From contig JAQUYE010000013.1 in the NCBI GenBank assembly GCA_028691965.1, forward strand, positions 1 to 47,250: a stretch of DNA of 47,250 bases, written 5' to 3'. The notes beneath the pieces are model-generated. The model ran no database searches and was not told the origin of the DNA. It worked only from the letters and a program-made list of their open reading frames with translations. Origin of the DNA: Paludibacter sp. GTDB taxonomy: Bacteria; Bacteroidota; Bacteroidia; Bacteroidales; Paludibacteraceae. Both the position numbers and the translations under genes were made by a program. Below are positions 1,750-20,947 of the stretch, one piece after another; position 1 is the stretch's first letter, and the number at the start of each line of letters is the position of its first letter.

Positions 1750-1797
1750 GCTACCTGGATAGCAAATTGAGTAGTGTGCACCTGAATCAGTTGCCGT

Positions 1798-3213: not shown

Positions 3214-3364
3214 GAAACTCCAACTAGATAAATGATTTCAAATATTCGTAGATATTATTGATTACCAACTTGCTCAAATGAATCCTTACAATAGATTTCG
3301 ATTGTCAGAATGTTAATTAAACCTAATATTTATTGACATCTAATGCTCAGAACTACTAATCGAT

Positions 3365-3387
3365 TATTTTTGTAAGCGAATACTTAC
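3365..3387 (+). promoter_or_regulatory. tetR promoter -7 box with overlapping TetR operator A
   Basis: The Bacteroidetes -7 box TATTTTTG lies at 3365-3372. No exact TTG lies at the usual distance; ATG at 3343-3345 is one mismatch away, 19 nt upstream. The box runs directly into the inverted repeat GTAAG-CGAATA-CTTAC (3372-3387), placed to block transcription start. The same motif recurs at 4017-4034 before the transporter gene with symmetrical base changes, which supports a shared operator for the TetR protein encoded at 3399. Autoregulation is inferred. Confidence 0.7.
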
Positions 3388-3398
3388 TTACATGATAA

Positions 3399-3977
3399 AT
3401 GGAACTTAAAACACGTCAAATAGAGATTGTAGAGGCTGCTGGTCGCTTATTAACACAAAAAGGCATAAACGGGCTTACTATTAAAAACCTGGCGAAGGAA
3501 ATGCATTTTTCCGAAAGTGCCATTTACCGGCATTTCGAAAGTAAAGAGGAAATTATTATTGCCTTACTCCGTTACCTGGCCGATACAATAGATCATCGAT
3601 TGCGCTCTATGTCTCTCAGCGGAAAGACGGATGTTGATTTGAAAAATCTGTTCGATGAGCAGTTTCTGTTTTTTAGTGAACATCATCATTTTGTAGTTGC
3701 TGTTTTTTCGGATGGTTTAATGGAGGAAAGTGTGTCAATCAACAAAGCAATTGAATCCCTGATAGGTATTATGACCCGGCAGTTGACAGCTATAGTATCC
3801 GAAGGACAAAAAACAGGACAAATTCGTGACGATATGGCTACCGAACATCTTATTCAAATTATATTAGGAACCTATAAATTACAAATGTTTAAATGGCGTC
3901 TGGCTGTTTTCACTTTCAATTTACCAGCCGAAGGTTCGCAACTTATCGACACCATTTTACGATTAATAAAAAAATAA
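3399..3977 (+). CDS. TetR/AcrR-family transcriptional regulator
   Basis: A 192-aa protein. Residues 5-50 form a typical TetR DNA-binding domain: the recognition region reads LTIKNLAKEMHFSESAIYRHFESKEEI, with the family signature Y-R-H-F-x-S-K-E. The remaining residues form the helical ligand/dimer domain, which is variable and gives no ligand clue. The ATG at 3399 is preceded by an operator-like palindrome and a -7 box at 3365. The export genes starting at 4026 follow after 48 bp and carry a matching palindrome, so the protein probably represses both itself and the exporter. The inducing ligand is unknown. Confidence 0.9.
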   Translation: MELKTRQIEIVEAAGRLLTQKGINGLTIKNLAKEMHFSESAIYRHFESKEEIIIALLRYLADTIDHRLRSMSLSGKTDVDLKNLFDEQFLFFSEHHHFVVAVFSDGLMEESVSINKAIESLIGIMTRQLTAIVSEGQKTGQIRDDMATEHLIQIILGTYKLQMFKWRLAVFTFNLPAEGSQLIDTILRLIKK

Positions 3978-4014
3978 AAGACAACGAGAATAACGATCTA
4001 TTTTTTTAATCACA

Positions 4015-4036
4015 AAAGTGAGTGAATGCTCACTTT
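4015..4036 (+). promoter_or_regulatory. TetR operator B overlapping the start of the RND exporter gene
   Basis: A perfect inverted repeat with 8-bp arms, AAAGTGAG-N6-CTCACTTT. Its core GTGAG-TGAATG-CTCAC matches operator A (GTAAG-CGAATA-CTTAC); the third base pair differs in both arms in a way that keeps the symmetry. It overlaps the ATG at 4026. A weak -7-like run TATTTTTT lies at 3999-4006. The placement suggests roadblock or initiation repression of the exporter. Confidence 0.7.
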
Positions 4037-6377
4037 CATCATCAAATTACTAATGAAACTAACAGTCAAAAAACTAACCACGTATTCATGGATTACCTTA
4101 CTTATTCTGGTAGCCGGGAGTATTTATTTTGTTCGGGAAATGAAGAACAATGCCTATATGGAAACCGATTTGGACGAGTATATGCCGGCCCAACATCCTG
4201 CTTTTGTTTTTAGTGAACAGGCAGAGGAATGGTTTTCAATCAAAGATGGTATTCTTATCGCTATTGAAAACAAATCGGGAGTTTTTAACCCCGAAACACT
4301 GGAAAAAATAAAGGATATTTCTTCTAAACTGCAAGAAATGAGTCAGTTTGAAGAAAACGACATCATGTCGCTGTATACCGCGGACAATATTCTGGGAACA
4401 GAAGATGGAATGGATGTGCAGCCATTTTACGAAGAGGTTCCTGTGCAGCCGGGAGAGTTGGATAGTTTGCGGCGAAGTGTTGAATCGAACGACATGGTTC
4501 ATGGGCGACTTGTTTCGGAAGACGGAACAGTGGCGTTAATTGCTGCCAGTATGAAAGATGATGTGTTTGATGAAGCTTTTCATGCCGAAATATTGAAATT
4601 TGCTAAGTCGTACAACGGCGATGGTGATCAGGTGTATGTTGCCGGTCGCCCAATCGTAGAAGGGACGATGGGAATGCTGGGCCCCGAGGATATGAAACGA
4701 ATGGTACCGTTGGTGGTGTTGGTGATAACGCTGGTACTCTTTATCTTATTACGCAGTTTCCGGGCCACCCTTTTCACCTTGCTCAGTGTGGTGGTAAGTA
4801 CCATCTGGGCATTTGGACTGATGGCAGCGACGGGAGTGCCGATTTACTCGGTGGCTACCATGATGCCGGTAATGTTGATTGCCATTGGAGTGGCTTACGG
4901 AATTTATTTCTACAATCATTTAAATCAATACCGGTTATCGCGCCCTCAGGCTACCGATTCCGAAGCCGTGGTACATGCTGTTAAGTTGCTTTGGAAACCA
5001 CTTTCGATGGCTGCATTTACCACTATCATCGGGTTTATATCGCTGGTCACCTCGCAGGTATATCCTATAAAGTATTTTGGTTTATTTACTGCTTTTGGAA
5101 TTTTGGTTGCCTGGATGCTTGCATTGGTGTTTTTGCCTTCGTCGATTCTGATTTTTGGTAGCCGGAAACGTAAAATACGGGTGCACGATGATAAACCGAC
5201 CTATACTCTTCTCAATAAAATAACCGATAAATTGCTGATTACTAAAAAGATTAGCTTTACAGTATTGGTTGTGGTGATTGCATTATCCTTGTGGGGCCTG
5301 CAAAAAGTATGGATCAATTCGAGCTTTCTGGATAAGTTTGAACCGGATAGTGAAATAGTGAAAACCGATCAGTTTGTAAATTCAAAATTCGGAGGCACCT
5401 CTACCTTAAACGTGATTATAGAGTCGGACGAAGCAGATGCATTTAAACAACCCGAGAATCTGCGACTGGTGGACGAAATGCAGGAAGCTACCGAGGAACT
5501 GGCTAAGGTTGGGAATTCATTTTCGCTCACCGACTATATCAAACGGATGAATAAGGTGATGAATTCGGATGAGGAGGCTTTTTATACCATCCCCGAAAGT
5601 TCGGATATGGTAGCTCAATACCTCTTGCTTTACGAAATGTCGGGCGATCCGGAAAACCTGGTGAAGGTGGTGAATTATGATTACAACAAATTAAATATCA
5701 CTTTCCAGTTGAAAGGCGACGATTCAAAAACCATTAACGAAGCCATTGCCGTCATCGAATCATATACCGACCGGTTCAACGAGCTGGGCCTGACTATGAA
5801 GTATGCCGGATCGGGATATAAATCGCTGGTGTTTTCCGATTTGATTCTTGAGGGACAGTTGTGGAGTATCGCCTTATCACTTGGCATGGTATTCTTACTA
5901 CTTGCTTTGATGTTCAAGAGTTTAAAAGCGGGCATCATCGGAAGTATTCCAATTGTAATTACAGCCCTGATTAGTTTCGGAGTGATGGGTCTGGCCGATA
6001 TTGCATTAAGTACCACCACAGCTTTACTTACCAGTATTGCCATCGGGATTGGGGTCGATTACGCCATTCACTTTTTGCAAACCTATCAGGTTTATTTCAA
6101 AAAGACCAATTCGCGTCACGAGGCCATTCATGCTACCATGCACCACACCGGTACTGCCATCCTGAGTAATGCGGTGGTTGTAATTGCTGGTTTCCTGGTG
6201 ATGTTGTTTTCGGTATTTCCGCCCAACAGGATGCTGGGTCTACTCGTGTCGATGAATATGTTTACCAGTTTGGTAGGTACTCTTTCGATTATGATGATTC
6301 TGGTGTATGTTTCACAATTATTTAAAAACAAAAAAAGCAATAACAATTCAATTTCAACAAACAATGAAAACAATTAA
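4026..6377 (+). CDS. RND/MMPL-family exporter
   Basis: A 783-aa inner-membrane protein with the duplicated RND layout: one N-terminal helix (about residues 18-36), a large periplasmic loop, helices 2-6 (about 220-375), a second periplasmic loop, and helices 8-12 (about 620-770). The charged helix-4 motifs occur twice, as IGVAYGIYFYNHL near 287 and IGIGVDYAIHFLQ near 673. That is the MMPL/SSD-type layout used for lipids and hydrophobic compounds, without the adaptor protein of tripartite pumps. Start 4026 lies inside the operator; an in-frame ATG at 4053 (MKLTVKK) is an equally good start. The 3' end overlaps the LolA-like gene by 14 bp, showing one operon. Confidence 0.85.
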   Translation: MLTFIIKLLMKLTVKKLTTYSWITLLILVAGSIYFVREMKNNAYMETDLDEYMPAQHPAFVFSEQAEEWFSIKDGILIAIENKSGVFNPETLEKIKDISSKLQEMSQFEENDIMSLYTADNILGTEDGMDVQPFYEEVPVQPGELDSLRRSVESNDMVHGRLVSEDGTVALIAASMKDDVFDEAFHAEILKFAKSYNGDGDQVYVAGRPIVEGTMGMLGPEDMKRMVPLVVLVITLVLFILLRSFRATLFTLLSVVVSTIWAFGLMAATGVPIYSVATMMPVMLIAIGVAYGIYFYNHLNQYRLSRPQATDSEAVVHAVKLLWKPLSMAAFTTIIGFISLVTSQVYPIKYFGLFTAFGILVAWMLALVFLPSSILIFGSRKRKIRVHDDKPTYTLLNKITDKLLITKKISFTVLVVVIALSLWGLQKVWINSSFLDKFEPDSEIVKTDQFVNSKFGGTSTLNVIIESDEADAFKQPENLRLVDEMQEATEELAKVGNSFSLTDYIKRMNKVMNSDEEAFYTIPESSDMVAQYLLLYEMSGDPENLVKVVNYDYNKLNITFQLKGDDSKTINEAIAVIESYTDRFNELGLTMKYAGSGYKSLVFSDLILEGQLWSIALSLGMVFLLLALMFKSLKAGIIGSIPIVITALISFGVMGLADIALSTTTALLTSIAIGIGVDYAIHFLQTYQVYFKKTNSRHEAIHATMHHTGTAILSNAVVVIAGFLVMLFSVFPPNRMLGLLVSMNMFTSLVGTLSIMMILVYVSQLFKNKKSNNNSISTNNENN

Positions 6378-7140
6378 ATTTTTAGGACTGACAGTATTAC
6401 TGTCGATGATGAGCACCGGGGTGATATTGGCTCAGAAAACGGGCTTACAGGTTATGCAAACGGTTTACAATTTACCTTCGGGTGAAGATACACAGGCTGA
6501 GCTTTCGATGGTACTCACCAACAAACAAGGTGAAAAAAGGGTTCGCCAGTTAAAGCAGTATATTTCCGAAACGGGCGGAGTTGAAAAAAAAATCATGTAT
6601 TTTGTATCGCCGGCCGATGTAAAAGGCACTTCGTTTATGAACTGGAGTTATAGTACAGGCAAGGAAGATGATCAGTGGATATACCTCCCTGCATTGAAAC
6701 GCACGAAACGAATTTCGAGTGGCAGTAAAGGTGATTATTTTATGGGATCCGATTTTACTTACGACGATTTGGGCGATCGTCATCCCGATCAGGATACTCA
6801 TAAATTGGTACGTGAAGAAACAGTAGCCGGGAAGGCCTGTTATGTGGTTGAAAGTAAACCCAAAACATCGGGACATATGTATTCTAAAACCATTACCTGG
6901 GTTATGAAAGACAACTTCATAGGGCTGAAACGCGAATTTTACGATCCAAACGGGAAGTTGCTGAAAACGCTTTTGGTGAAGAATTATCAAAAAATAAGCG
7001 GCATTTGGGTAATTCTGGAAACAGAGATGAAGAATGTGCAGAAAAATCATTCGACAACCATTACTTTACGCAATGTAAAGGTAAATCAGGGTGTTCCTGC
7101 TTCCAAATTTACTGAACGTAGTATGACCATGGGCAGCTAA
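6364..7140 (+). CDS. Outer-membrane lipoprotein-sorting protein (LolA-like)
   Basis: A 258-aa protein from the ATG at 6364, inside the end of the exporter gene. That start gives a clean signal peptide (MKTIKFLGL...GVILAQ, cleavage near residue 23), whereas upstream in-frame codons would bury it. The mature part has the features of the LolA-like 'outer membrane lipoprotein-sorting' family that accompanies MMPL exporters, including MNWSYSTGKEDDQWIYLPALKRTKRI and the SDFTYDDLGDR motif near residue 125. The likely role is a periplasmic beta-barrel-like carrier that moves a hydrophobic cargo from the MMPL pump to the outer membrane. The cargo is unknown. Sits 14 bp before the barrel gene. Confidence 0.8.
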   Translation: MKTIKFLGLTVLLSMMSTGVILAQKTGLQVMQTVYNLPSGEDTQAELSMVLTNKQGEKRVRQLKQYISETGGVEKKIMYFVSPADVKGTSFMNWSYSTGKEDDQWIYLPALKRTKRISSGSKGDYFMGSDFTYDDLGDRHPDQDTHKLVREETVAGKACYVVESKPKTSGHMYSKTITWVMKDNFIGLKREFYDPNGKLLKTLLVKNYQKISGIWVILETEMKNVQKNHSTTITLRNVKVNQGVPASKFTERSMTMGS

Positions 7141-7154
7141 AAAATTATTAATGT

Positions 7155-8393
7155 ATGAAACGATTACTAAGTTATCTTCTTTTAGGATTAGTGGTATCCG
7201 GCATGCTGTCGGCACAGAACAATCAGTTGGACATCTCGGGTTATGTGCGGAATTATACAGGGTTACTAACGAGCGATATGGATCAGTTTTCGATTGTTCA
7301 AAATACGCTGAATCTGAATTTGGAACTCAGGGGAGAAAAAACCGGATTAAAGGTAAATCCCTATCTGTATCAGTATTTTGATCAAGCACCCGAGCTTGGG
7401 TTACGGGAAATATACCTGGATTATTACACCGACAAACTCGATGTTCGTATTGGTAAACAGCAGATTATCTGGGGTAAAGCCGAAGGAGTTTTTATTACTG
7501 ATATTATCTCCCCCAAAGATTTAAGTGAATTTTTACTACGCGATTTTGAAGAAATCAGGTCGGGTGTGACGGCAGTAAAATTAAATTATCACACCGGAAT
7601 TCACACACTCGAAGGCGTGTGGGTGCCGGTATTTACCCCCACTATCATGCCTGCAAGTGGTTCCATCTGGGCACCCTCCTTAAACTTCCCGATTCCGCCG
7701 GTGTGGGATTATTCAACCGCCAACAAGGCGTTTTCGGTGAGCAATAGCGAGGCGTTTTTAAGGTATTCACTTATGGCATCGGCCTTTGATTTGGAGCTGG
7801 TAGGAGGTTCGTTTCTATACGACGATCCGGCCATGCACCTTACCCGACAAGTCGATCCGGTTACCAAACAGCTAAAAGGTTTAACCGTTCGTCCCGATTA
7901 TCACCGGGTGAATATGGCCGGAGGGAGTTTCAGTTTGCCACTGGGCGACCTGGTGGTTCGCGGCGAAGGTGCATATTACGATGGCAGGTATTTTCAGACA
8001 ACAGCACCGACCTCGCCCGACGCTACCCTCGAAAAGAATTACCTGCATTATATGGCCGGAGTGGATTATACTTTGGCAGGCATCAAACTAAGTGCACAGT
8101 TTATACAGGAACGTATACTCGACTATGAAACAGGAATTCAGAACGAAGTAGTAGAAACAACGATGACCTTTCTCGCTAAAAAGGATTTTTTCAGAGAAAA
8201 ACTATGGCTCGAATTATTTGCTTATGTAGGTTTGAACAACGAAGATGCGCTGATTCGCCCCAAGTTGAGCTATTCAATAGCCGATGGAATGGAACTTCAG
8301 GCCGGTGCAAATATCTTCACCGGAATTGCAGGACGGTTCGGACAATATGATTCCAACGACATGGTATTCATGAAATTAAAATATAGTTTTTAG
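7155..8393 (+). CDS. Predicted outer-membrane beta-barrel protein of the export operon
   Basis: A 412-aa protein with a signal peptide (MKRLLSYLLLGL...MLSAQ, about 20 residues). The mature part has repeated amphipathic strands rich in Tyr, Phe and Gly and ends in the aromatic KLKYSF typical of outer-membrane barrels. The order MMPL exporter, LolA-like protein, barrel resembles proteobacterial sets with a DUF1302-type barrel; I assign that resemblance from context and strand pattern, not from an alignment. It is probably the outer-membrane partner of the system. It ends the operon; an imperfect hairpin lies at 8420-8488 before the convergent metY. Confidence 0.7.
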   Translation: MKRLLSYLLLGLVVSGMLSAQNNQLDISGYVRNYTGLLTSDMDQFSIVQNTLNLNLELRGEKTGLKVNPYLYQYFDQAPELGLREIYLDYYTDKLDVRIGKQQIIWGKAEGVFITDIISPKDLSEFLLRDFEEIRSGVTAVKLNYHTGIHTLEGVWVPVFTPTIMPASGSIWAPSLNFPIPPVWDYSTANKAFSVSNSEAFLRYSLMASAFDLELVGGSFLYDDPAMHLTRQVDPVTKQLKGLTVRPDYHRVNMAGGSFSLPLGDLVVRGEGAYYDGRYFQTTAPTSPDATLEKNYLHYMAGVDYTLAGIKLSAQFIQERILDYETGIQNEVVETTMTFLAKKDFFREKLWLELFAYVGLNNEDALIRPKLSYSIADGMELQAGANIFTGIAGRFGQYDSNDMVFMKLKYSF

Positions 8394-8419
8394 GTAAAAA
8401 ACTATCGGTCAAGAAATAG

Positions 8420-8488
8420 TATCAGCACTCTTCAATTTTCAGTGTTTTAAATTCGGTTCAGAACATCAGAAAACGGAAAGTGCTGATA
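8420..8488. repeat. Long inverted repeat between convergent genes
   Basis: TATCAGCACT at 8420-8429 and its exact complement AGTGCTGATA at 8479-8488 enclose about 49 nt. The bases just inside can extend the stem only imperfectly. It lies between the 3' ends of the barrel gene and metY. It could act as a two-way transcription stop, but it lacks a clear T-run directly after the stem. Confidence 0.5.
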
Positions 8489-8555
8489 ATTTTATATTTA
8501 ATTGAATTGAATATCGTCTTTTCAACAGTACCCATTCTTCATTTTTCAATCCACG

Positions 8556-9854
<1,299 letters not shown>

Positions 9855-9870
9855 TTATATAATGTAGTTA

Positions 9871-10818
9871 TTAAAGAGGATATTCATCAAAAGCATATAA
9901 AAGAGTCGACAGGTAACGCTCGCCGGTATCGGGCAGCAGCACAACAATATTCTTCCCTTTGTTTTCGGGACGCAAGGCAAGCTGAGTAGCAGCATAGGCA
10001 GCAGCACCACTTGAAATCCCTACAAGCATTCCTTCTTCACGGCTCAGCTGACGAGCAGTAAGGATAGCCTGATCGTTGGTTACCTGAAAAACTTCATCGA
10101 CTACTTCCGGATTAAAGTTTTTCGGAATAAATCCGGCACCAATTCCCTGAATCTTGTGCGGACCGGGATTTCCTCCCGAAAGAACAGGAGAATCAGTAGG
10201 TTCAACAGCTACTATCTGCACAGCAGGATTGTGTCCTTTCAAAGCAGCTCCTACTCCGCTAATAGTACCACCAGTACCCACACCACCGACAAAGATATCC
10301 ACTTTGCCATCGGTATCGTTCCATATTTCTTCTCCGGTAGTATCGCGATGTACGGCCACATTGGCAGGGTTCTCAAATTGCTGGGGGATAAAGGCAGCCT
10401 TACTTTCGGCAGCAATAGCCTGAGCACGGGCAATGGCACCTTTCATACCTTCAGCTCCGGGAGTCAATACAATGTTCGCACCTAATGCTTTCAACAGATT
10501 GCGACGTTCAACACTCATCGTTTCAGGCATAGTCAACGTAAGTTGATACCCCTTGATAGCCGCCACAAAGGCAAGACCTATTCCTGTATTACCACTGGTA
10601 GGTTCAACGATCTCCACTCCTTGTTTCAGGATACCTTTCGATTCAGCATCTTCAATCATCGACAAGGCGATACGTTCTTTCACACAACCAAGTGGATTAA
10701 ATGATTCCATCTTTACGAGAACAGTTGCTTCCAGCTTACGCTTCTGAGCATAATTAGATAGTTGAACTAAGGGAGTATTTCCTACAAGCTCGGTAAGGTT
10801 TTTTGCTATTCGTGCCAT
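9871..10818 (-). CDS. cysK: Cysteine synthase A (O-acetylserine sulfhydrylase)
   Basis: A 315-aa fold-type II PLP enzyme. The PLP lysine is in [11 protein letters not shown] near residue 46. The substrate loop is [13 protein letters not shown] near 91, and the phosphate-binding glycine loop is [12 protein letters not shown] near 177. It converts O-acetylserine and sulfide to cysteine. The Pro-Leu-Gly-Cys form of the lysine motif (instead of Pro-Gly-Gly-Ser) is a sequence variant worth noting but the key residues are kept. It is the first gene of the cysK-metY operon and has its own promoter at 10849-10879. Confidence 0.92.
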
Positions 10819-10848
10819 ATTATAAATGTGAGTTAATGATTACTGATG

Positions 10849-10879
10849 CAAAAGTACAGCAGTTTTCATCAACTCACAA
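10849..10879 (-). promoter_or_regulatory. cysK-metY promoter
   Basis: On the minus strand TTG (10879-10877) is followed after 20 nt by TACTTTTG (10856-10849), the Bacteroidetes promoter pattern, about 30 nt before the cysK ATG. No riboswitch-like fold is seen in the short leader. Confidence 0.75.
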
Positions 10880-10929
10880 TAATATCAGAGAGGTATTTAT
10901 ATACCCTGTTTATGGTATTTATCAGCCTA

Positions 10930-13152
10930 TCAGAAGTTCAGGGTAATCGTTGCCAGCACGTTAGTACCTGCCTGAGGAAAATAACGCAAATCATTTTCAC
11001 GCTTGCCTGCCAGGTAATAGGAATACCAAACATAACCATTCGAGACGTAGCTTTCGTTGAACAGATTATTTACGACCATTTGCAGATCGATCGATTTCAT
11101 CTTTGGCAGTTTAAAGGAGTAAGCGGCCGACAAATTACTAAGGAAGTAAGCGGGTAACGAGCGTTCATCCGAACCGGTATTGTCGATAAATTGTTTCCCC
11201 ACATAATGCGACATAAGCGACAATTCAACTTCCCTTACTTTAACCGTAAACCGATTATTGGCCACCACCGATGGTGAATAGGCAATCGTTGTAGTACCAA
11301 TTTCGTTGCTTTGGGAATCAATCCAGTTCCAGTCGGCATCGTACACATCAACATCATGCTCTGTAAAATTATTAATTTTATTCTGACTCAGCGTCACACT
11401 TCCATCCCATTGAAACCAGGGTGTCGGTTTCCAGGCAAGCATCAGCTCTATACCCCTGCGATAACTATCCGGTATATTTGTGGTTAAGGCTTCACCAATC
11501 TCACTCATTTTACCGGTCAGAATTAACTGATTACGATACTTCATCCAATACAGGTTTGCACCTGCACTAAGGGTTGATGACTGATACCGGTAACCGATTT
11601 CGGTATCGTAGAGTGTTTCGTGAGTGGGACGTTCGTTCGGGCCGGCCTCAGTGTAGTTATTTCGATTCGGCTCACGGTTAGCAATTGAATAAGAGCCATA
11701 CAGGTCATGTCCTTTATTCATCCGGTAGGTAAGTCCCACCTTCGGATTAAAGAAATGGAAAGGATGAACCTGATCAACGCTACGCATTACCCCTTCATCT
11801 TCGTTGAACTTGTCGTCGGTACCTGCGAGCGCATGACGTATATAACGATATTGGGCATCTGCATTTACGTATAGTGACGGGAGTACTTCGGCTGTTATTT
11901 TGGCAAACACGTTGGCATCGTCTTTAATCCCGTTATTCCGGTACCAATCCTTACCGATATCGAGCCCCGAAGCATTCCGTGCCCATATCACTTTTCCAAA
12001 ATGATCACCTGAGTAACGATTGGCGGCACCACCCAGACTTGTACTCAGCCATGAACCGGTGTAATTAAGCGACCATGTTAAACCCACAAAATGATTATCA
12101 AGCCATTTCTGTCGTATCAGGTCCGTTTCTTCCAATGCAGTTCCATTAACCACGGGAGCTGTCAGTCCGTATTCAGCATACTCACGGTCTTGCTTGTATT
12201 CCTCATAAAACCCCTTACCACGTGTGTAGTGAGCTGCCACATTCAGATTTAACGACCGGCTAAGCGCTTGCATCCAGTGTAACTGATAATGATTCTGGGT
12301 ATAGTTATCTGTCTGGTTGTCGTAATATTGCATCATACCCTGATCATCAAAATACACTCCCAGCTCGTTGAAGGTTCTATTGGTAGCCATACTATCAGCA
12401 CTTACACCGTTCCAGGCCTGATAGGTCTTTTCATTACCTCCGAAGGTTATAAACTTCAGGGTTGATTTCTCACCATAATAACCACCGGTGAAGTACCATG
12501 ACTTCATATCCACCGATGCCCTGTCGATATAGCCATCAGAGCGAACATTCGACAATCGCATATCAAAGGCCCACTGATTATTAATTAACCCCGTACCTGC
12601 TTTGAGCATATTTTTGTTGGTATTAAACGAACCCAGGGTGGTTGACACTACAGCGTAAGGCTGATGCTGCAGTTGCTCAGTCTGCATATTAATGCTAGCC
12701 CCGAAAGCAGCTGCACCATTGGTCGACGTACCGACTCCCCGTTGTACCTGCACTGATGAAAGTGAGGAAGCAAAGTCGGGCATGTTAACAAAAAACACGG
12801 TGTGCGACTCTGCATCATTCAACGGGATTCCATTTACTGTGATATTTACCCGGTTTGCATCTGTACCACGAATTCGAAAACCGGTATAGCCAATGCCGGT
12901 ACCCGTTTCGGAAGTAGCAACAAAAGAAGGAGATAGCGCCAGCAGAAATGGAATATCCTGACCGGAATTACGCTTTTTTAATTCAGCAGCTGCAATAGTA
13001 GTATACGACACAGCCGACTTTTCATTCGCACGAATGGAAGTAACTGTTAGTTCTTCCAGTTCTACATGCATCGAATCGCGCTTTGAGTTGGTTTGTGCCG
13101 GCAAGACAGCACTTATGCCCGCAAGGAGCAATAAAAAACAATTTTTTCTCAT
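10930..13152 (-). CDS. TonB-dependent outer-membrane receptor, probably for thiamine
   Basis: A 740-aa protein from the ATG at 13152; the GTG one codon upstream is in frame but less likely. A signal peptide (MRKNCFLLLLAGISAVLPAQ) is followed by a TonB-box/plug domain (about residues 30-160, with SVQVQRGVGTSTNGAAAFG near 135), then a 22-stranded-type barrel ending in LATITLNF. No N-terminal carboxypeptidase-like SusC extension is present, so this is a small-cofactor type receptor. The TPP riboswitch directly upstream (13213-13298) predicts thiamine or a precursor as substrate; Bacteroidetes TonB receptors under TPP control have been proposed to import thiamine. It is monocistronic, because cysK has its own promoter. 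Confidence 0.9.
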   Translation of the reverse strand: MRKNCFLLLLAGISAVLPAQTNSKRDSMHVELEELTVTSIRANEKSAVSYTTIAAAELKKRNSGQDIPFLLALSPSFVATSETGTGIGYTGFRIRGTDANRVNITVNGIPLNDAESHTVFFVNMPDFASSLSSVQVQRGVGTSTNGAAAFGASINMQTEQLQHQPYAVVSTTLGSFNTNKNMLKAGTGLINNQWAFDMRLSNVRSDGYIDRASVDMKSWYFTGGYYGEKSTLKFITFGGNEKTYQAWNGVSADSMATNRTFNELGVYFDDQGMMQYYDNQTDNYTQNHYQLHWMQALSRSLNLNVAAHYTRGKGFYEEYKQDREYAEYGLTAPVVNGTALEETDLIRQKWLDNHFVGLTWSLNYTGSWLSTSLGGAANRYSGDHFGKVIWARNASGLDIGKDWYRNNGIKDDANVFAKITAEVLPSLYVNADAQYRYIRHALAGTDDKFNEDEGVMRSVDQVHPFHFFNPKVGLTYRMNKGHDLYGSYSIANREPNRNNYTEAGPNERPTHETLYDTEIGYRYQSSTLSAGANLYWMKYRNQLILTGKMSEIGEALTTNIPDSYRRGIELMLAWKPTPWFQWDGSVTLSQNKINNFTEHDVDVYDADWNWIDSQSNEIGTTTIAYSPSVVANNRFTVKVREVELSLMSHYVGKQFIDNTGSDERSLPAYFLSNLSAAYSFKLPKMKSIDLQMVVNNLFNESYVSNGYVWYSYYLAGKRENDLRYFPQAGTNVLATITLNF

Positions 13153-13212
13153 CACAAATTGATTAAAAATGAATTAATAATTTATTATGAGAGTCCAAAA
13201 AATATACGGAGA

Positions 13213-13298
13213 TTACTTCTTCCCTCGGCAGCATTACCTGTCCAGGTTCAAAGGGTATGATCTCAGCCCGTAATTATTAGGCACCCCCGATTTTCAGA
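13213..13298 (-). promoter_or_regulatory. TPP riboswitch (THI element)
   Basis: Read on the minus strand, the leader contains the conserved THI-box blocks in order: GGGGGTGCC, GGGCTGAGATCATACCC (CTGAGA at 13266-13261), GAACCTGGACAGG, then TAATGCTGCCGAGGGAAG. Order and spacing match the TPP aptamer. It lies 60 nt upstream of the receptor ATG at 13152. I see no intrinsic terminator between aptamer and gene, so control at translation is more likely. The outer boundaries are approximate, because the P1 stem is not obvious. Confidence 0.93.
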
Positions 13299-13336
13299 AC
13301 ATGAAGGAATGATATAAGTTGTTCGGAAAACCGCTG

Positions 13337-13366
13337 CAAAGGTAGGTATTATTTTTAAATGCACAA
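13337..13366 (-). promoter_or_regulatory. Promoter of the TPP-controlled receptor
   Basis: Minus strand: TTG (13366-13364), 19 nt, TACCTTTG (13344-13337). The predicted transcript start near 13330 lies about 30 nt before the aptamer, as expected for a riboswitch leader. Confidence 0.75.
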
Positions 13367-13406
13367 TTATGGTCATCATTTTAACACAATAACTGCTCCT
13401 TTAGAA

Positions 13407-13436
13407 TTGGAAATGTAAGTTATTTACTTATTTTTG
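13407..13436 (+). promoter_or_regulatory. Promoter of the exported unknown protein gene
   Basis: TTG at 13407-13409, 19 nt, TATTTTTG at 13429-13436, about 29 nt before the ATG at 13465. It is back to back with the receptor promoter on the other strand. Confidence 0.7.
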
Positions 13437-13464
13437 CGGAAAAATAGTAATACATATTAAAGTA

Positions 13465-14514
13465 ATGTTTCAGAAGTATTTCCTTTTACTAAGTTTCCTG
13501 TTACTGAACCTAACTCTCAATGCTCAGCTTACCGCACCGGCCGACACCTTAACCGGGGATACATTAGCAGCCAACTTTGAAGCCCCTGAGGACAGCAGTG
13601 AGACACATGAAATAACACTGTTTCTGATGCCTACCATGCTCCCGCTTGACTGGAGTAGTCCGTCAGCATTGTATAAAAGTATGTTACAAACTTACCTGAA
13701 AACAATCGGACTTAAAGACAACTATCTGCTCGGTCATCTGGCAGTGCGACTCAACACACCGCTTCTCGACAAACCCTTATTCACTGCACAGTCGTCGCTT
13801 AAATGGCAGGAACGCATTGATATGGTATTGAAACAACGCGTGGGATTCGGGATTTTAGGTGCTGCACTTCAAGGCAGGATTGAACCTTCGGAAGAAATAC
13901 AACACAAGTTGCAGGTTTACAAAAACAGGAATAAACTTAGCTACATCACCTACCGTGTGAATCGTACTGCAATGAAACGGATGCTTATGTTTTACGAACA
14001 GTATCAACAAAAAATTACAGATGACTATGCAGCGAGTGATTTCTATGGAGGTGCTTTCTGGCCCCGTTACCACAACGAAGGTGCAGGATGTTCTGCTTTT
14101 GGATTTGCATTGTTGGATGTTGCCGGAGTATTACCTGAAGAAGCCAGCGACTGGAAAGTGGAGGTAAAAATCCCCATGAATATTATCGGAGGAAAATTCA
14201 ACAAGGGCAAAAAAATCAGGAACAGGACCATTCGGCGGACTACCAGCTGGTATACAGGAAGCGGAGCTAAGAATGTAGATTATGCTGACTACTTTGTTTG
14301 GGATCCTTCTATCATGTACAATTGGGTACGCGATTTACATAGCCATCAGGATTCGGCAGTCTACCGATTAACTGAATACGACGGCATCCCCGGTCTGTAT
14401 AAAGATGTACGCGACATACAAGTAGACCTCAAAAGTCCTATTTTTATACAGCGCCCCGACTCAAACATCTTCATAAATCATTACTATCAACGATTAAATT
14501 TGCAAAAAAACTAA
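13465..14514 (+). CDS. Exported protein of unknown function
   Basis: A 349-aa protein I do not recognise. It starts with a signal peptide (MFQKYFLLLSFLLLNLTLNAQ, cleavage near 20-21), so it is periplasmic or outer-membrane associated. An acidic linker (EAPEDSSETHE) precedes a globular part. A notable stretch is FWPRYHNEGAGCSAFGFALLDVAG (about residues 194-217), with a lone Cys in a small-residue context and a nearby His, which could be the active site of a papain-like (NlpC/DUF4105-type) hydrolase; this is a guess from local pattern only. It is a single gene with its own promoter, between the thiamine receptor and the leucine operon, and neither neighbour explains it. Confidence 0.75.
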   Translation: MFQKYFLLLSFLLLNLTLNAQLTAPADTLTGDTLAANFEAPEDSSETHEITLFLMPTMLPLDWSSPSALYKSMLQTYLKTIGLKDNYLLGHLAVRLNTPLLDKPLFTAQSSLKWQERIDMVLKQRVGFGILGAALQGRIEPSEEIQHKLQVYKNRNKLSYITYRVNRTAMKRMLMFYEQYQQKITDDYAASDFYGGAFWPRYHNEGAGCSAFGFALLDVAGVLPEEASDWKVEVKIPMNIIGGKFNKGKKIRNRTIRRTTSWYTGSGAKNVDYADYFVWDPSIMYNWVRDLHSHQDSAVYRLTEYDGIPGLYKDVRDIQVDLKSPIFIQRPDSNIFINHYYQRLNLQKN

Positions 14515-14532
14515 TAATTTCATACTTAACTC

Positions 14533-14562
14533 TTGTTTTTATTGAAATTTGATGTATCTTTG
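14533..14562 (+). promoter_or_regulatory. Leucine operon promoter
   Basis: TTG at 14533-14535, 19 nt, TATCTTTG at 14555-14562. The inferred start near 14568 gives a leader of about 170 nt that includes the leader peptide and attenuator. Confidence 0.8.
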
Positions 14563-14584
14563 CCGCATATTATTATAAAGTGTA

Positions 14585-14647
14585 ATGCAACCAGTATTTA
14601 TACATACTCTACTCCTCGGTATTCTAATTCTTTTACATAGAAAGTAA
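14585..14647 (+). CDS. Leucine operon leader peptide
   Basis: A 20-codon ORF beginning about 17 nt after the inferred transcript start. Its core HTLLLGILILL contains six Leu codons using four different triplets (CTA, CTC, TTA, CTT), plus three Ile and one Val. Such density of the operon's end products is the hallmark of a leader peptide for ribosome-mediated attenuation. The stop codon overlaps the 5' arm of the antiterminator (14647-14654), so a ribosome that finishes the peptide would cover that arm, while one stalled at the Leu run would leave it free. Confidence 0.85.
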   Translation: MQPVFIHTLLLGILILLHRK

Positions 14648-14720
14648 GAGTGAGTTCGGTATGCATATAAGTTATTAGATATTCAAAACCTTTCTCACTC
14701 TAAGTGGGGAAGGTTTTTTT
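14647..14720 (+). terminator. Leucine operon attenuator (antiterminator / terminator)
   Basis: The terminator is a 14-bp stem, AAAACCTTTCTCAC (14685-14698) with GTGGGGAAGGTTTT (14704-14717), loop TCTAA, with the T-run reaching 14720. The competing antiterminator pairs AGAGTGAG (14647-14654) with CTCACTCT (14694-14701), which removes the upper half of the terminator 5' arm. leuA begins 20 nt after the T-run. The geometry fits classical attenuation: charged leucyl-tRNA leads to termination, starvation to read-through. Confidence 0.87.
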
Positions 14721-14740
14721 CTTTAAAAAACACAAGGATT

Positions 14741-16234
14741 ATGGACAGACTTTTTATTTTTGACACAACATTACGCGACGGCGAACAAGTCCCGGGTTGT
14801 CAGCTCAACACCGTTGAAAAGATTCAAGTGGCAAAAGCACTGGAGCAACTTGGCGTCGATGTGATTGAAGCCGGATTCCCGATTTCAAGTCCGGGCGACT
14901 TTAACTCTGTAGTAGAGATTTCGAAGGCTGTTACCTGGCCTACAATCTGCGCACTTACAAGGGGAGTTCAGAAAGATATTGAAGTAGCTGCCCAGGCACT
15001 ACAGTTTGCCAAGCACAAACGTATTCATACAGGTATAGGCACATCCGATTATCACATTAAATATAAGTTCAACTCCAACCAGGAAGAAATTCTTGAACGG
15101 GCTGTAGCTGCTGTTAAGTATGCCAAATCGTTTGTGGAGGATGTTGAGTTTTATTGTGAAGATGCAGGCCGCACCGACAATATTTACCTGGCACGTGTTG
15201 TGGAAGCTGTTATAAAAGCCGGAGCCACTGTAGTAAATATCCCTGACACTACCGGATATTGCTTACCGCATGTATATGGTGAAAAGATTAAATTCCTGAT
15301 GGAAAATGTAAAGGGGGTACACAACGCCATTCTATCCACTCATTGCCATAATGATTTGGGGATGGCAACTGCCAACACTATGGCCGGTGTTCTCAATGGA
15401 GCCCGTCAGGTGGAAGTTACCATCAACGGTATCGGCGAACGTGCCGGCAACACCTCACTCGAGGAAGTTGCCATGATACTGAAGTGCCATAAAGACCTTC
15501 AGATTGACACTCAAATCAATACCCATAGGATTTACAGTACCAGTCGCTTGGTTTCCAACCTGATGAACATGCCGGTTCAACCTAACAAAGCAATTGTAGG
15601 TCGTAATGCATTTGCACATTCATCGGGCATCCACCAGGATGGAGTACTGAAGAATCGCGAAAGCTATGAGATAATGGACCCAACCGATGTGGGTATCGAC
15701 AAGAACTCAATTGTGTTGACTGCCCGTAGTGGGCGTGCCGCATTAAAACACCGGATGAGCGTGTTAGGTGTTGACATCGATGGAACAAAGCTGGATGCTA
15801 TCTATGAGGAGTTCCTGAAACTGGCTGATCGCAAAAAAGATATAAATGATGACGATGTATTAATGCTGGCAGGAAAGGAACGGGCTTCCCACGAACGCAT
15901 CAAGCTCGAATACCTTCAGGTAACATCCGGAGTAGGTTTACGCCCGGTAGCCAGTCTGGGTATTCAGATAGCCGGAGAGCAGTTTGAAGCTGCAGCATCC
16001 GGTAATGGTCCGGTAGATGCTGCCATCAATGCACTTAAAAAGATTATCAACCGTAAAATGACTCTTCAGGAATTCACCATTCAGGCTATCAACCGTGGAA
16101 GTGATGATATGGGAAAGGTTCACATGCAGGTTGAACACCAGGGAATTGTATACTATGGATTTGGTGCCAATACTGATATTATAGCAGCTTCGGTTGAAGC
16201 ATATATCAATGCAATCAACCAATTCATTAAATAA
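14741..16234 (+). CDS. leuA: 2-isopropylmalate synthase
   Basis: A 497-aa enzyme condensing acetyl-CoA with 2-ketoisovalerate, first step of leucine synthesis. The TIM-barrel domain opens with [13 protein letters not shown] (residues 7-19), holds the metal site [12 protein letters not shown] near 205, and the GIHQDG motif near 295. The C-terminal part (about 370-497) is the LeuA allosteric domain that binds leucine, with [27 protein letters not shown]. An AAGGA ribosome-binding sequence precedes the ATG. It is the first structural gene of leuACD-synthase-leuB and is controlled by the upstream attenuator. Confidence 0.93.
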
Positions 16235-16267: not shown

Positions 16268-17662
16268 ATGAGTAAAACGCTTTTTGACAAAATCTGGGAT
16301 GCCCATGCAGTATCCTCAGTAGAAAACGGACCCACCCAATTGTATATCGATCGTCACTTCTGTCACGAAGTGACCAGTCCGCAAGCATTCAACGGTCTGC
16401 GTGCCCGTGGCCTGAAGGTGTTTCGTCCGGAACTTACAACGATGACGGCCGACCATAACACACCTACCATCGACCAGGATCAGCCTGTTAAAGACCCGAT
16501 ATCACGTAACCAGCTGGATCAGTTTGCTAAGAATGCAGCTGAATTCAATATGCCTATTTTCTATCCCCTGGGACATGCAAAGAATGGGGTTGTACATATT
16601 ATCGGTCCTGAAAACGGGTTTACACAACCGGGTATGACCATCGTTTGTGGCGACAGCCATACATCTACCCACGGTGCATTCGGAACCATTGCGTTTGGAA
16701 TCGGAACTTCGGAGGTGGAGATGGTGTTAGCTACACAGTGTATCCTTCAAACACGTCCTAAAACCATGCGCATTACCTACAACGGAAAACTCGGTAAGGG
16801 AGTCATGGCCAAGGATCTTGCACTCTTTACAATTGCGCAGCTGACAACCGGAGGAGCAACCGGCTACTTTGTGGAATATGCAGGCGAAGCCATTCGCTCA
16901 ATGAGCATGGAAGAGCGCATGACAGTTTGTAATCTTTCTATTGAAATGGGTGCCCGCGGAGGTATGATAGCCCCCGATGAAACCACCTTCAGTTATGTAA
17001 AAGGACGCGAGTTTGCTCCTAAAGGAGAAGAATGGGATCGCAAACTGGCACATTGGAAAACACTTGTATCCGATGAGGGGGCTGTGTTCGACAAGGAACT
17101 TGTCTTTGATGCAGCCGACATACAGCCTATGATTACCTACGGCACCAATCCCGGCATGGGAATGGGAATCCGGGAGTCTATTCCGACCATGGACCAGGTG
17201 GATGAAGCGGGAAGGATATCCTTCAGGAAATCACTCGACTATATGGGTTTCACAGCCGGAGAACAATTACTGGGCAAATCAATCGACTATGTTTTTCTGG
17301 GAAGTTGTACAAACGGTCGCATCGAAGACTTCCGTATATTTGCCAACTATATTAAAGGAAAGAAAAAAGCCGACAATGTAACAGCCTGGTTAGTTCCCGG
17401 TAGCTGGGGAGTTGAAAAGCAAATACGTGAAGAAGGTTTACTCGACATTCTTACTGAAGCCGGCTTCAAGCTTCGTCAACCCGGCTGCTCTGCCTGCCTG
17501 GCAATGAACGATGACAAGGTTCCTGCCGGAAAGTATGCCGTATCGACCTCGAACCGTAACTTTGAAGGACGTCAGGGACCCGGAGCCCGTACAATCCTGG
17601 CCGGACCACTGGTTGCCGCAGCAGCAGCTGTTACCGGACGCATTACCGATCCCCGCGAGTAG
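16268..17662 (+). CDS. leuC: 3-isopropylmalate dehydratase large subunit
   Basis: A 464-aa aconitase-family subunit. The 4Fe-4S ligands are in [13 protein letters not shown] near 347 and in [11 protein letters not shown] near 407 (C-x2-C). The substrate region [13 protein letters not shown] is near 130. With LeuD it isomerises 2- to 3-isopropylmalate. Length is normal for the bacterial LeuC. It starts 33 bp after leuA and leads into leuD after 31 bp, so it is within the operon. Confidence 0.94.
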
Positions 17663-17693
17663 TATTCACCTTACAAACGAACACGATTACGTT

Positions 17694-18284
17694 ATGAACA
17701 AATTTGAAAAACTAACTTCAACGGTTGTCCCACTTCCTATTGAAAATGTGGATACCGACCAGATTATACCTGCCCGTTTCCTTAAAGCCACCAACAAAGA
17801 TGGATTTGGCGACAACCTCTTTGCCGACTGGCGCTATGAGAAAGACGGAACTCCGAAAAAAGACTTTGTACTTAATAACCCCACCTATTCAGGTAGCATT
17901 CTGGTAGGAGGGAAAAATTTTGGCTCCGGCTCCAGTCGCGAACATGCTGCATGGGCTATCGACGGCTACGGTTTTAAAGTTGTGGTGTCGAGCTTCTTTG
18001 CCGATATATTTCAAAATAACGCTCTCAACAATGGGGTATTACCAGTTGTTGTTAGTCCTGAGTTTCTGGCTGAAATATTTGCAGCAGTAACTACTGATCC
18101 GTCTACAACACTGACTGTCGATTTGGACAGCCAAACTATTACCAATAACGCCACCGGCAAAAGCGAGTCGTTTTCCATCAACCCTTACAAAAAGGAATGC
18201 CTGTTGAAAGGGATGGACGATATCGATTATCTGCTAAGCAAAAAAGAACAGGTTTTACAGTACGAAGCCAAACGTACTATTTAA
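17694..18284 (+). CDS. leuD: 3-isopropylmalate dehydratase small subunit
   Basis: A 196-aa swivel-domain subunit. The frame is open further upstream, inside leuC, but the ATG at 17694 gives the conserved LeuD N-terminus ([31 protein letters not shown]) and normal length. The motif [17 protein letters not shown] near residue 74 is diagnostic. It completes the isopropylmalate isomerase with LeuC. The next gene begins 3 bp after its stop. Confidence 0.94.
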
Positions 18285-18287
18285 TTC

Positions 18288-19826
18288 ATGGCTATGATAG
18301 AGATAATGGACACTACCCTGCGCGACGGGGAACAGACATCAGGTGTAGCCTTTGCTACACCTGAGAAGCTGAGTATAGCACGGCTATTACTCGAGGAGCT
18401 GTGTGTGGACAGAATCGAGATCGCCTCAGCCAGGGTATCGGAAGGTGAGTACGACTCAGTAAAGAAAGTAGTGCGCTGGGCACGTGACAATGGGCATATT
18501 CATAAAATAGAGGTGCTTGGCTTTGTCGACAACCGCACTTCTCTTCAATGGATAGAGAATGCTGGTTGCAAAGTTATTAACCTCTTATGTAAGGGATCAG
18601 AAAACCATTGTCGGCACCAACTGCGCAAAACTCCTCAGGAACACCTGGATGACATTCGCCGCGAGATTGGCTATGCCAACGAAATGGGAATAGACGTAAA
18701 CATTTACCTCGAAGACTGGTCGAACGGTATGCGAAATTCTCCGGAGTATGTATACTTTATGGTAGATCAGTTACAGCATGAGAAACTGAAGCGTATCATG
18801 TTGCCCGACACCCTTGGTATTTTAAATCCGGGCGAAACGCTAAGGTTCTGCACTCAAATGATTGAGCGATACCCCACCATACACTTTGACTTCCACGCTC
18901 ACAACGATTACGACTTTGCGGTGGCCAATGTATACGAAGCAGTGAAAGCCGGTATACAGGGAGTACATGTTACCATTAACGGGCTGGGTGAAAGAGCAGG
19001 TAATGCTCCGCTCTCCAGTGTAGTAGCGGTTTTAAAAGATCACAACAAACGTTCAACCAACGTTCAGGAAAGCAAGATTAACTCGGTAAGCCGATTGGTA
19101 GAAACCTATTCAGGAATTCGTATTCCTGCCAATAAACCGGTAATTGGCGATAATGTATTTACGCAGGTTGCCGGCATTCATGCCGACGGAGACAACAAAC
19201 ACAATCTCTATTACAACGATTTACTGCCCGAACGTTTTGGAAGGGAACGGGTATATGCCCTGGGGAAAACCTCCGGAAAGGCAAACATCCTTAAAAACCT
19301 GCAGCAACTCGGCATTGAACTCGATGCCGAAATGATGGCTCTGGTTACTAAAAAGGTGATCGAGTTAGGTGATCGTCGTGAAATGGTAACCATCGACGAG
19401 TTACCTTATATAGTTGCTGATGTGGTAAACAGTGCCACCGACCAGCACCTTATTAAGGTAGTTAATTATAGTCTGTCGGTTACCAATGGCCTTCGACCTA
19501 TGGCCAGTGTTAAACTGGATATTCGCGGAGAGGAATTTGAGCAGTCGGCATCCGGCGACGGGCAGTTTAATGCCATCTCCAAAGCAATGTATAAGATATT
19601 CAAAAAACTGGGCAAGCCAACGCCCGAATTACTCGACTATGAAGTAGTGATTCCTCCGGGTGGTAAAACCGATGCCATCGTTCAAACTATTATTACCTGG
19701 CAGTTTGAAGGCAAATCGTTCCGGACACGTGGACTCGATGGCGACCAGACTGTAGCGGCTATTAAAGCTACAGAAAAGATGCTGAATATAATTGAAAGCG
19801 GAGAGATACCGGGAAAACAATGTTAG
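18288..19826 (+). CDS. Second alpha-isopropylmalate/citramalate synthase family enzyme
   Basis: A 512-aa member of the LeuA/CimA/homocitrate synthase family: [16 protein letters not shown] near residue 7, FHAHNDYDFAVANVYEA near 205, NGLGERAGNAPL near 232 and a C-terminal LeuA-type dimerisation/regulatory domain (RPMASVKLDIRGEEFEQSASGDGQFNA near 405). It is clearly diverged from the leuA product 3.5 kb upstream. The most likely role is (R)-citramalate synthase, making 2-ketobutyrate precursors for isoleucine; LeuC, LeuD and LeuB are known to process citramalate in that route. A second isopropylmalate synthase is the main alternative. The gene lies 3 bp after leuD. Confidence 0.8.
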   Translation: MAMIEIMDTTLRDGEQTSGVAFATPEKLSIARLLLEELCVDRIEIASARVSEGEYDSVKKVVRWARDNGHIHKIEVLGFVDNRTSLQWIENAGCKVINLLCKGSENHCRHQLRKTPQEHLDDIRREIGYANEMGIDVNIYLEDWSNGMRNSPEYVYFMVDQLQHEKLKRIMLPDTLGILNPGETLRFCTQMIERYPTIHFDFHAHNDYDFAVANVYEAVKAGIQGVHVTINGLGERAGNAPLSSVVAVLKDHNKRSTNVQESKINSVSRLVETYSGIRIPANKPVIGDNVFTQVAGIHADGDNKHNLYYNDLLPERFGRERVYALGKTSGKANILKNLQQLGIELDAEMMALVTKKVIELGDRREMVTIDELPYIVADVVNSATDQHLIKVVNYSLSVTNGLRPMASVKLDIRGEEFEQSASGDGQFNAISKAMYKIFKKLGKPTPELLDYEVVIPPGGKTDAIVQTIITWQFEGKSFRTRGLDGDQTVAAIKATEKMLNIIESGEIPGKQC

Positions 19827-19867: not shown

Positions 19868-20947
19868 ATGAGTAAGAAATTAAATATTGCTGTGTTGGCA
19901 GGCGACGGAATTGGTCCCGAAATTGTGAAACAAGCCCTGGATGTAACTAAGGCTGTTTGTGAGAAATTTGGTCATACCCTTTCTTATGAAGAAGGGATTA
20001 CCGGTGCCTGTGCTATTGATGCAGTGGGCGATCCCTACCCGGCCGCCACTCACGAACTTTGCATGCGTTCGGACGCTGTCCTCTTCGGAGCTATCGGTGA
20101 TCCGAAATACGACAACAATCCATCTGCAAAAGTACGCCCCGAGCAAGGGTTGTTAAGAATGCGTAAACAACTTGGTTTATATGCTAATATCCGCCCGGTT
20201 ACTACTTTTCCGTCGTTGATTCACAAATCACCTTTACGCGCCGACCTGGTTGAAGGTGCCGACTTTATGTGCATCCGCGAATTAACCGGCGGCATGTATT
20301 TCGGCCGCCCGCAAGGACGTTCGGAAGATGGAAACACGGCTTACGACACCTGTGTATATACCCGTGAAGAGGTAGAACGCATCATGCACCTGGCTTATAA
20401 ATATGCCGGACAACGCCGCAAAAAGGTAACTATGGTCGATAAGGCAAACGTACTGGCTTCCAGCCGCCTGTGGCGTCAGGTTACTCAGGAAATTGCTCCG
20501 CAGTATCCTGATATCGAAACAGAGTATATGTTTGTTGATAATGCAGCAATGCGTATCATCCAATGGCCTAAAAGCTTTGATGTATTGGTAACAGAAAACC
20601 TGTTCGGCGATATCCTTACCGACGAAGCCTCAGTTATTACAGGCTCACTTGGCATGCTCCCTTCTGCTTCAATCGGAATACACACTTCAGTATTCGAACC
20701 CATTCACGGATCGTACCCACAAGCGGCAGGTAAGAATATTGCGAACCCACTGGCTACTATCCTGTCGGCAGCCCTCATGTTTGAATACGCCTTTACAATG
20801 ATGGAAGAAGGAGCATTGATACGTGAGGCCGTAGCAGCAAGCATGGATGCAGGTGTTGTAACCGAAGATATTGCAAGTGGAAACAAAGCACATAGCACAA
20901 CAGAAGTTGGAGAATGGATAGTAAACTACATCCGTTCAAAAGCCTGA
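19868..20947 (+). CDS. leuB: 3-isopropylmalate dehydrogenase
   Basis: A 359-aa beta-decarboxylating dehydrogenase (isocitrate/isopropylmalate family). It shows [10 protein letters not shown] near residue 11, the substrate Arg loop [21 protein letters not shown] near 90, [10 protein letters not shown] near 138, and the metal-binding Asp region [26 protein letters not shown] near 240. It oxidises 3-isopropylmalate to 2-ketoisocaproate. Last gene of the operon; its last 12 bp overlap the 3' end of the convergent pabC-like gene. Confidence 0.94.

Follow-up and report, generated by a model that had tools for sequence, protein, structure and literature searches.

Does the short region ahead of leuA in this Paludibacter genome control the leucine operon through a translating ribosome, and if so, which amino acids would it sense? 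The operon lies on the forward strand of the window, by which we mean the whole 47,250-nucleotide stretch of DNA that was analysed. It comprises leuA (2-isopropylmalate synthase, the first structural gene; 14741–16234; NF002086, 738 bits, above the cut-off), leuC (16268–17662), leuD (17688–18284), a citramalate-synthase-like gene (18288–19826; best family NF042433, 657 bits, below the curated cut-off of 950) and leuB (19868–20947). The original prediction had placed a leucine-responsive transcription attenuator in front of these genes.

Inspection of the region upstream of leuA revealed, on the same strand, the parts that had been proposed: firstly, a promoter (14533–14562; TTG at 14533–14535, a 19-nt spacer and TATCTTTG at 14555–14562) of the Bacteroidetes −33/−7 type; secondly, a 20-codon leader ORF (14585–14647; MQPVFIHTLLLGILILLHRK; stop codon TAA at 14645–14647) with six Leu, three Ile and one Val codon, among them the putative control codons CTA CTC CTC GGT ATT CTA ATT CTT TTA (LLLGILILL; 14609–14635); thirdly, the 5' arm of an antiterminator (region 2, 14647–14660; AGAGUGAG at 14647–14654 and GGU at 14658–14660), which begins 11 nt after the control-codon run and whose first base is the last base of the leader stop codon; fourthly, an intrinsic terminator (14685–14717; −17.6 kcal/mol) with a 3-nt loop and a stem that on recount has 15 bp instead of the 14 first given. 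The terminator's T-run, visible in the sequence at 14714–14720, stops 20 nt short of the leuA start codon. In the antiterminator (−14.4 kcal/mol in the window), 14647–14654 pairs with 14694–14701 over 8 bp and GGU with ACC at 14688–14690; these partners (region 3) form the 5' part of the terminator and are common to both structures. The leader codons can also pair with the antiterminator-arm region in a possible protector hairpin, 1:2 (14603–14663; −16.4 kcal/mol). No Shine-Dalgarno sequence was evident by eye for the leader.

The competing structures were then evaluated by folding. All 200 of 200 shuffles fold worse than the leader RNA of the window (z −3.13), and the antiterminator helix has a p of 0.009 against 1000 shuffles of region 2. 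In nascent RNA extending to 14704, with a ribosome placed in the Leu run, the free downstream RNA folds as the antiterminator; with the ribosome at the stop codon, the antiterminator is absent; and it also forms in nascent RNA without a ribosome. Folding of the complete RNA without a ribosome favours the 1:2 hairpin and the terminator. Because the complete RNA energetically favours the terminator in every state that was folded, the switch would have to be kinetic, as in the classical model.

These features suggest a mechanism in which transcription would begin some 15 nt upstream of the leader ORF's ATG. When leucine or isoleucine is scarce, a ribosome would stall in the LLLGILILL run with its leading edge just short of the arm at 14647–14654, and the freed arm would pair with 14694–14701, reinforced by the GGU/ACC pairing, before the 3' half of the terminator is transcribed; RNA polymerase would then continue into leuACD, the synthase gene and leuB. 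When both are plentiful, the ribosome would reach the stop codon and cover the arm, the 15-bp terminator would form, and transcription would end at about 14720.

We assembled LeuA relatives from two sources: contigs with record titles (the best 80 of a longer list) and 295 sampled genomes of the order Bacteroidales, 140 of which gave a match; of these 140 we examined the window's own and 89 others (29 loci and 60 fetched upstream stretches). After three loci with short upstream sequence and two duplicates had been dropped, 165 distinct loci were tested with a joint rule that calls for an ATG-initiated ORF of 14–34 amino acids with at least six Leu, Ile or Val among nine consecutive residues and at least three Leu, and for a terminator whose stem has at least 8 bp and starts no more than 75 nt from the end of the ORF. 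The leuA upstream region fits this rule in 105 of the 165 (59/77 from contigs, 45/87 from genomes, and the window itself), as compared to 0/165 reverse complements and 3/3280 dinucleotide shuffles, and the rule recovers E. coli leuL. Among 470 tiles of 400 nt covering both strands of the window, only those over the leader site fit; among 4002 flank tiles there were 20 matches, 11 of which are leaders of ten leuA loci and nine of which lie elsewhere (a background of ~0.2%). In 91 of 104 leader loci the leader ATG is preceded by a promoter motif, TTG-N17–23-TAnnTTTG, against 0.34 expected from shuffles. The proposed check, conservation of the short ORF and stems in related Bacteroidales, thus came out in favour of the prediction.

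The remaining 60 leuA loci fail the rule, which speaks against the reading. A relaxed rule finds a candidate leader in four. In 14 of the 60, as compared to 1 of the 105 leader loci, an upstream frame on the same strand ends no more than 60 nt from leuA, so that leuA in those 14 is probably internal to a longer operon.

Differences among leaders of close relatives (15 distinct sequences, picked by closeness, so that the pairs are not independent) fall at the first, second and third codon positions 296, 268 and 614 times, with 389 synonymous and 445 nonsynonymous changes. Another version of this test, giving 862 synonymous and 210 nonsynonymous changes, was discarded as circular, its sequences having been picked by amino-acid motif.

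To follow the two stems across relatives, we used an alignment of 47 of 74 loci, 13 of 87 having been dropped earlier by a hand-picked list and 27 rows of the 74 on visual inspection, because they were near-duplicates or difficult to align, a selection that favours good fit. In this alignment 91.1% of cells are paired in the terminator, where 4 of 11 pairs show two-sided changes, and 95.7% in the antiterminator, where 6 of 9 do. An earlier pair count over 87 of 94 loci (seven had no CC anchor) leans towards pairing, the register chosen being the best-pairing one. None of 500 shuffles attains the covariation score of either stem, and both stems exceed all slid versions. Simple counts separate less sharply: 24 of 500 shuffles have at least as many terminator pairs with two-sided changes, and 160 of 500 at least as many further pair types in the antiterminator.

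Since the arm often lies inside the ORF, region 2 was widened into the ORF. With the search limited to sequence downstream of the stop codon, 28 of 94 loci have an antiterminator at p ≤ 0.05; with the widened region, 63 of 94 do, as do 68 of all 105, 37 not being significant singly. Across all 105 loci, pairing of region 2 is stronger with the region 3 of the same locus than with a swapped partner (19.95 vs 15.79, p 6e-18), a p value that is optimistic given the non-independence of related loci; region 2 had been widened after the data were seen, and this control applies the same widened region to both sides. The protector hairpin 1:2, strong in the window, is near chance across relatives in one test (mean z 0.05), while a second gives mean z 0.40 (p 0.001), with p ≤ 0.05 in 11 of 105 loci.

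Where the arm lies relative to the leader ORF differs among the 68 loci whose arm is significant. Between codon run and arm the median distance is 12 nt (IQR 11–13; 10–13 nt in 52 of 68), measured from the last pair of adjacent Leu, Ile or Val codons; codons beyond the arm's start are disregarded, so that the spread is somewhat narrowed. Counted from the end of the stop codon, the arm starts at a median of −9 (IQR −22 to −3, range −27 to +2): it is at the stop (−6 to +3) in 30 loci, well inside the ORF (at least 18 nt before the end of the stop codon) in 30, and between these in eight. In Paludibacter-type leaders the arm begins at or just after the stop codon; in Bacteroides-type leaders it lies inside the ORF and encodes Gly-Ser-Glu or similar. 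All of these positions are roughly within the cover of a ribosome at the stop codon. By these measurements, the conserved feature is the codon-to-arm spacing and not an arm that starts at the stop codon; that part of the original prediction describes the window correctly but does not extend to relatives as a conserved trait.

Which amino acids are sensed is a separate question. One reading, which we consider unlikely, retains the same attenuator and lets Leu codons alone matter, the Ile codons being incidental. The six Leu codons of the Paludibacter leader speak for it, as does the enrichment of CTA, a codon that is rare in leuA: it accounts for 134 of the 405 Leu codons counted over 80 leaders, against 49 of 2653 in leuA of the same loci. 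Against it, residues of the 105 leuA leaders are 21.8% Leu and 20.1% Ile, with 1.7% Val, and the operon includes the citramalate-synthase-like gene. LeuCD and LeuB also act in the citramalate route to isoleucine. A search of this 89%-complete genome with one threonine ammonia-lyase family model, TIGR02079, gave just three sub-threshold matches; NCBIfam assigns two of them to trpB and cysK, and the third is trpB-like by eye. Judging from gene content, the leu operon may be the cell's entry into isoleucine as well as leucine, with LeuCDB and the citramalate-synthase-like gene as the isoleucine route. Since Ile is about as frequent as Leu in the leaders and such a gene sits in the operon, the sensor is probably one of both amino acids: the signal would be charged tRNA-Leu and, probably, charged tRNA-Ile, and we rate isoleucine's part in sensing as likely. 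The attenuator of the original prediction is therefore retained, but not its restriction to leucine.

We next asked whether similar leaders precede other operons, using a covariance model built from the leuA leader and terminator. In this genome the leuA site scores highest (5e-15), followed by a site before ilvD (6.7e-4). The latter (G000:C37:3442–3568, locus L205) has a Val/Leu/Ile-rich leader, MATNFFNSILVLVVELLVINQG, with a promoter, an arm (p 0.028) and a terminator. Two further leaders of the same genome, both on the minus strand, precede a prephenate dehydratase gene, pheA (L292, on G000:C122; Phe/Tyr-rich MNMNRFFTYFYFYFYFSR, arm p 0.001, terminator), and trpB (L293:2270–2700, on G000:C88; TIGR00263; three adjacent Trp codons in MNMIVRSLNNNWWWHLQNRFCE, terminator). 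A leader of this kind was looked for before hisG of this genome and not found. Another match of the model, C58:962–1077 (E 0.038), was judged to be a chance terminator.

Across 198 genomes of the order, the model found 96 matches in 63 genomes: 37 lie no more than 400 nt from leuA and partly recover the model's own training set, 41 precede ilvD, and 18 are at other places. The ilvD assignments were made from N-terminal sequences, with two proteins (L205 and L264) checked against NCBIfam. At least three Val codons occur in 29 of 37 ilvD leaders vs 0 of 105 leuA leaders; the 37 were hand-picked from the 41 sites, and adding the other four (L221, L230, L253, L259) gives 31 of 41, counted by eye. 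For four leaderless leuA loci (G117, G038, G106, G143), the model matches ~5.3–5.5 kb upstream of leuA, before ilvD. The 18 other matches include ilvB and ilvE types, named by eye, several apparent chance terminators, and a leader, MRKFLFTYTNFYYFWFFKQKRGLYV, before a prephenate dehydratase gene (213 bits, just below the cut-off of 219). A leader MRLFTLHHHHHYCMPSGMGLMF precedes a hisG-like gene (named by eye; no family at 1e-60), and an Asn-rich one, MFILNNFNLLINNNPFER, an asparagine synthase B gene (L247).

At four sites (L265, L266, L268 and L241), two Ile-rich leaders with terminators stand in tandem as apparent double attenuators; the downstream gene is ilvE at L265, where it was checked, and ilv-type by eye at the others. 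At three more (L219, L245, L246), an arm and a terminator precede glutamate synthase large subunit genes, an identity checked for one of the three, and the leader ORF has no obvious codon run.

In a sample of the phylum, the model gave matches in 34 of 296 genomes, 31 of them outside the order, some of which look like chance terminators. The matched leaders include one with WAWFW before trpE and a Thr/Ile leader before an aspartate kinase-homoserine dehydrogenase type gene. Outside this Paludibacter genome, operon-matched codons before thrA-type, hisG and asparagine synthase genes are single examples.

These codon choices bear on a second reading, in which the region is a T-box, a riboswitch or a protein-binding leader and the ORF is incidental. 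Rfam offers it weak sub-threshold matches to PyrR (26.9 bits, gathering 54) and BTnc231 (19.5 bits, gathering 80.4), both with E 0.057; no Rfam family reaches its gathering score here, however, and neither T-box nor Leu_leader, the enterobacterial family, is among the ten matches at E ≤ 5 to 14520–14760. Moreover, the codon run differs from operon to operon (Val before ilvD, Phe/Tyr before pheA, Trp before trpB), in keeping with the ribosome as reader, and we consider this explanation very improbable. Because no family matches at gathering, the element is likely to be unannotated in genomes of a major gut order.

The sub-threshold BTnc231 match covers 14626–14717 of the window. The idea that BTnc231, a B. 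thetaiotaomicron sRNA in Rfam, is a terminated leuA leader was not supported: the family matched 0 of 20 loci at gathering, 16 of which are Bacteroides-type leuA loci.

Two other readings are less probable still. That the stem is the ordinary terminator of the upstream gene (13465–14514) beside a chance ORF is suggested by that gene's strand and by its end 170 nt before the stem, but a promoter of conserved arrangement lies between them, and relatives show both conservation and covariation of the ORF, arm and terminator, leaving it hardly credible. Equally hard to credit is that the leader chiefly boosts leuA translation through reinitiation by ribosomes that finish it, as proposed for leader genes in PMC4833913, which reports a peak of them 11–14 bp before genes in Bacteroidetes, for here 93 nt separate the leader stop from leuA, a distance that ranges from 72 to 323 nt over the 105 loci, with the terminator between.

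Together, the parts and their conservation, the two covarying stems, the codon-to-arm spacing and the match of codons to operon, all of them read from sequence, argue strongly that the leader is a ribosome-mediated transcription attenuator before leuACD, the synthase gene and leuB, and we hold this reading with high confidence; a start site ahead of the leader, its translation, stalling and read-through in the cell would follow from it. The enterobacterial-type logic invoked by the original prediction is likewise supported.

More broadly, we think it somewhat more probable than its opposite that Bacteroidota run a phylum-wide set of operon-matched leader-peptide attenuators on one RNA design, in which ~12 nt from codons to arm would be constant and the stop codon free to fall before, in or after the arm. 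At the same strength, the pairings of this set would be Leu/Ile with leuA, Val with ilvD, Phe/Tyr with pheA, Trp with trp, Thr/Ile with thrA, His with hisG and Asn with asnB. If such a set exists, ribosomes of this phylum must keep close behind RNA polymerase, and the attenuators would provide a natural assay for coupling. Being open to mutation, the leuA leader itself would serve to read out transcription-translation coupling in bacteria that initiate translation without Shine-Dalgarno sequences; it would also explain, in a way that can be tested, how Bacteroidales adjust their synthesis of branched-chain amino acids.

Leader-peptide attenuation has mostly been described in Proteobacteria and Actinobacteria. 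For Bacteroidetes/Chlorobi, Vitreschak et al. in 2004 reportedly predicted some attenuators. The authors of a 2010 survey state that they knew of no case demonstrated outside Proteobacteria and Actinobacteria before their own Firmicutes case, the atypical ermC leader apart (PMC2965389). The original prediction called attenuation less documented in Bacteroidetes; it is not undescribed there: a section of a study on Flavobacterium psychrophilum reports strong clues for it (PMC9723704). In B. thetaiotaomicron, 5' regions carry ORFs 'reminiscent of leader peptides', in the words of one passage of PMC7366714, and mRNAs without Shine-Dalgarno sequences are described for the phylum in portions of PMC6847099 and PMC3155529. 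We found no description of a Bacteroidales leuA leader in the literature searched; an earlier prediction of this leader is possible.

How does this leader compare with known systems? E. coli leuL-leuABCD likewise has a Leu-rich leader ORF and a terminator before leuA, and its control is by a stalled ribosome; the Paludibacter leader differs in being rich in both Leu and Ile, in its Bacteroidetes-type promoter, in having no Shine-Dalgarno sequence that is evident by eye and in a 1:2 protector that is weak across relatives. The enterobacterial thrL and ilvL attenuators have mixed codons, so that more than one amino acid is read by one leader; the leader described here resembles them in that more than one amino acid of a shared pathway would be read by one leader, and differs in its operon (leuACD, the citramalate-synthase-like gene and leuB). 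The F. psychrophilum elements are closer in phylogeny, being from the same phylum and, in the section concerned, combining amino-acid biosynthesis operons with structured 5' regions; the conserved elements of that section include pheA and hisG, and leuA is absent from it (PMC9723704). The actinobacterial LEU element is likewise, in the portion of its description that bears on this, a conserved RNA with a leader peptide before leuA, but the effects of Leu-codon mutations there misfit classical attenuation and a pseudoknot has been proposed (PMC1262725), whereas in the Bacteroidales leuA leaders terminator and antiterminator both covary. The kind of regulation is thus known, and the Bacteroidales leuA leader is well supported as a further member.
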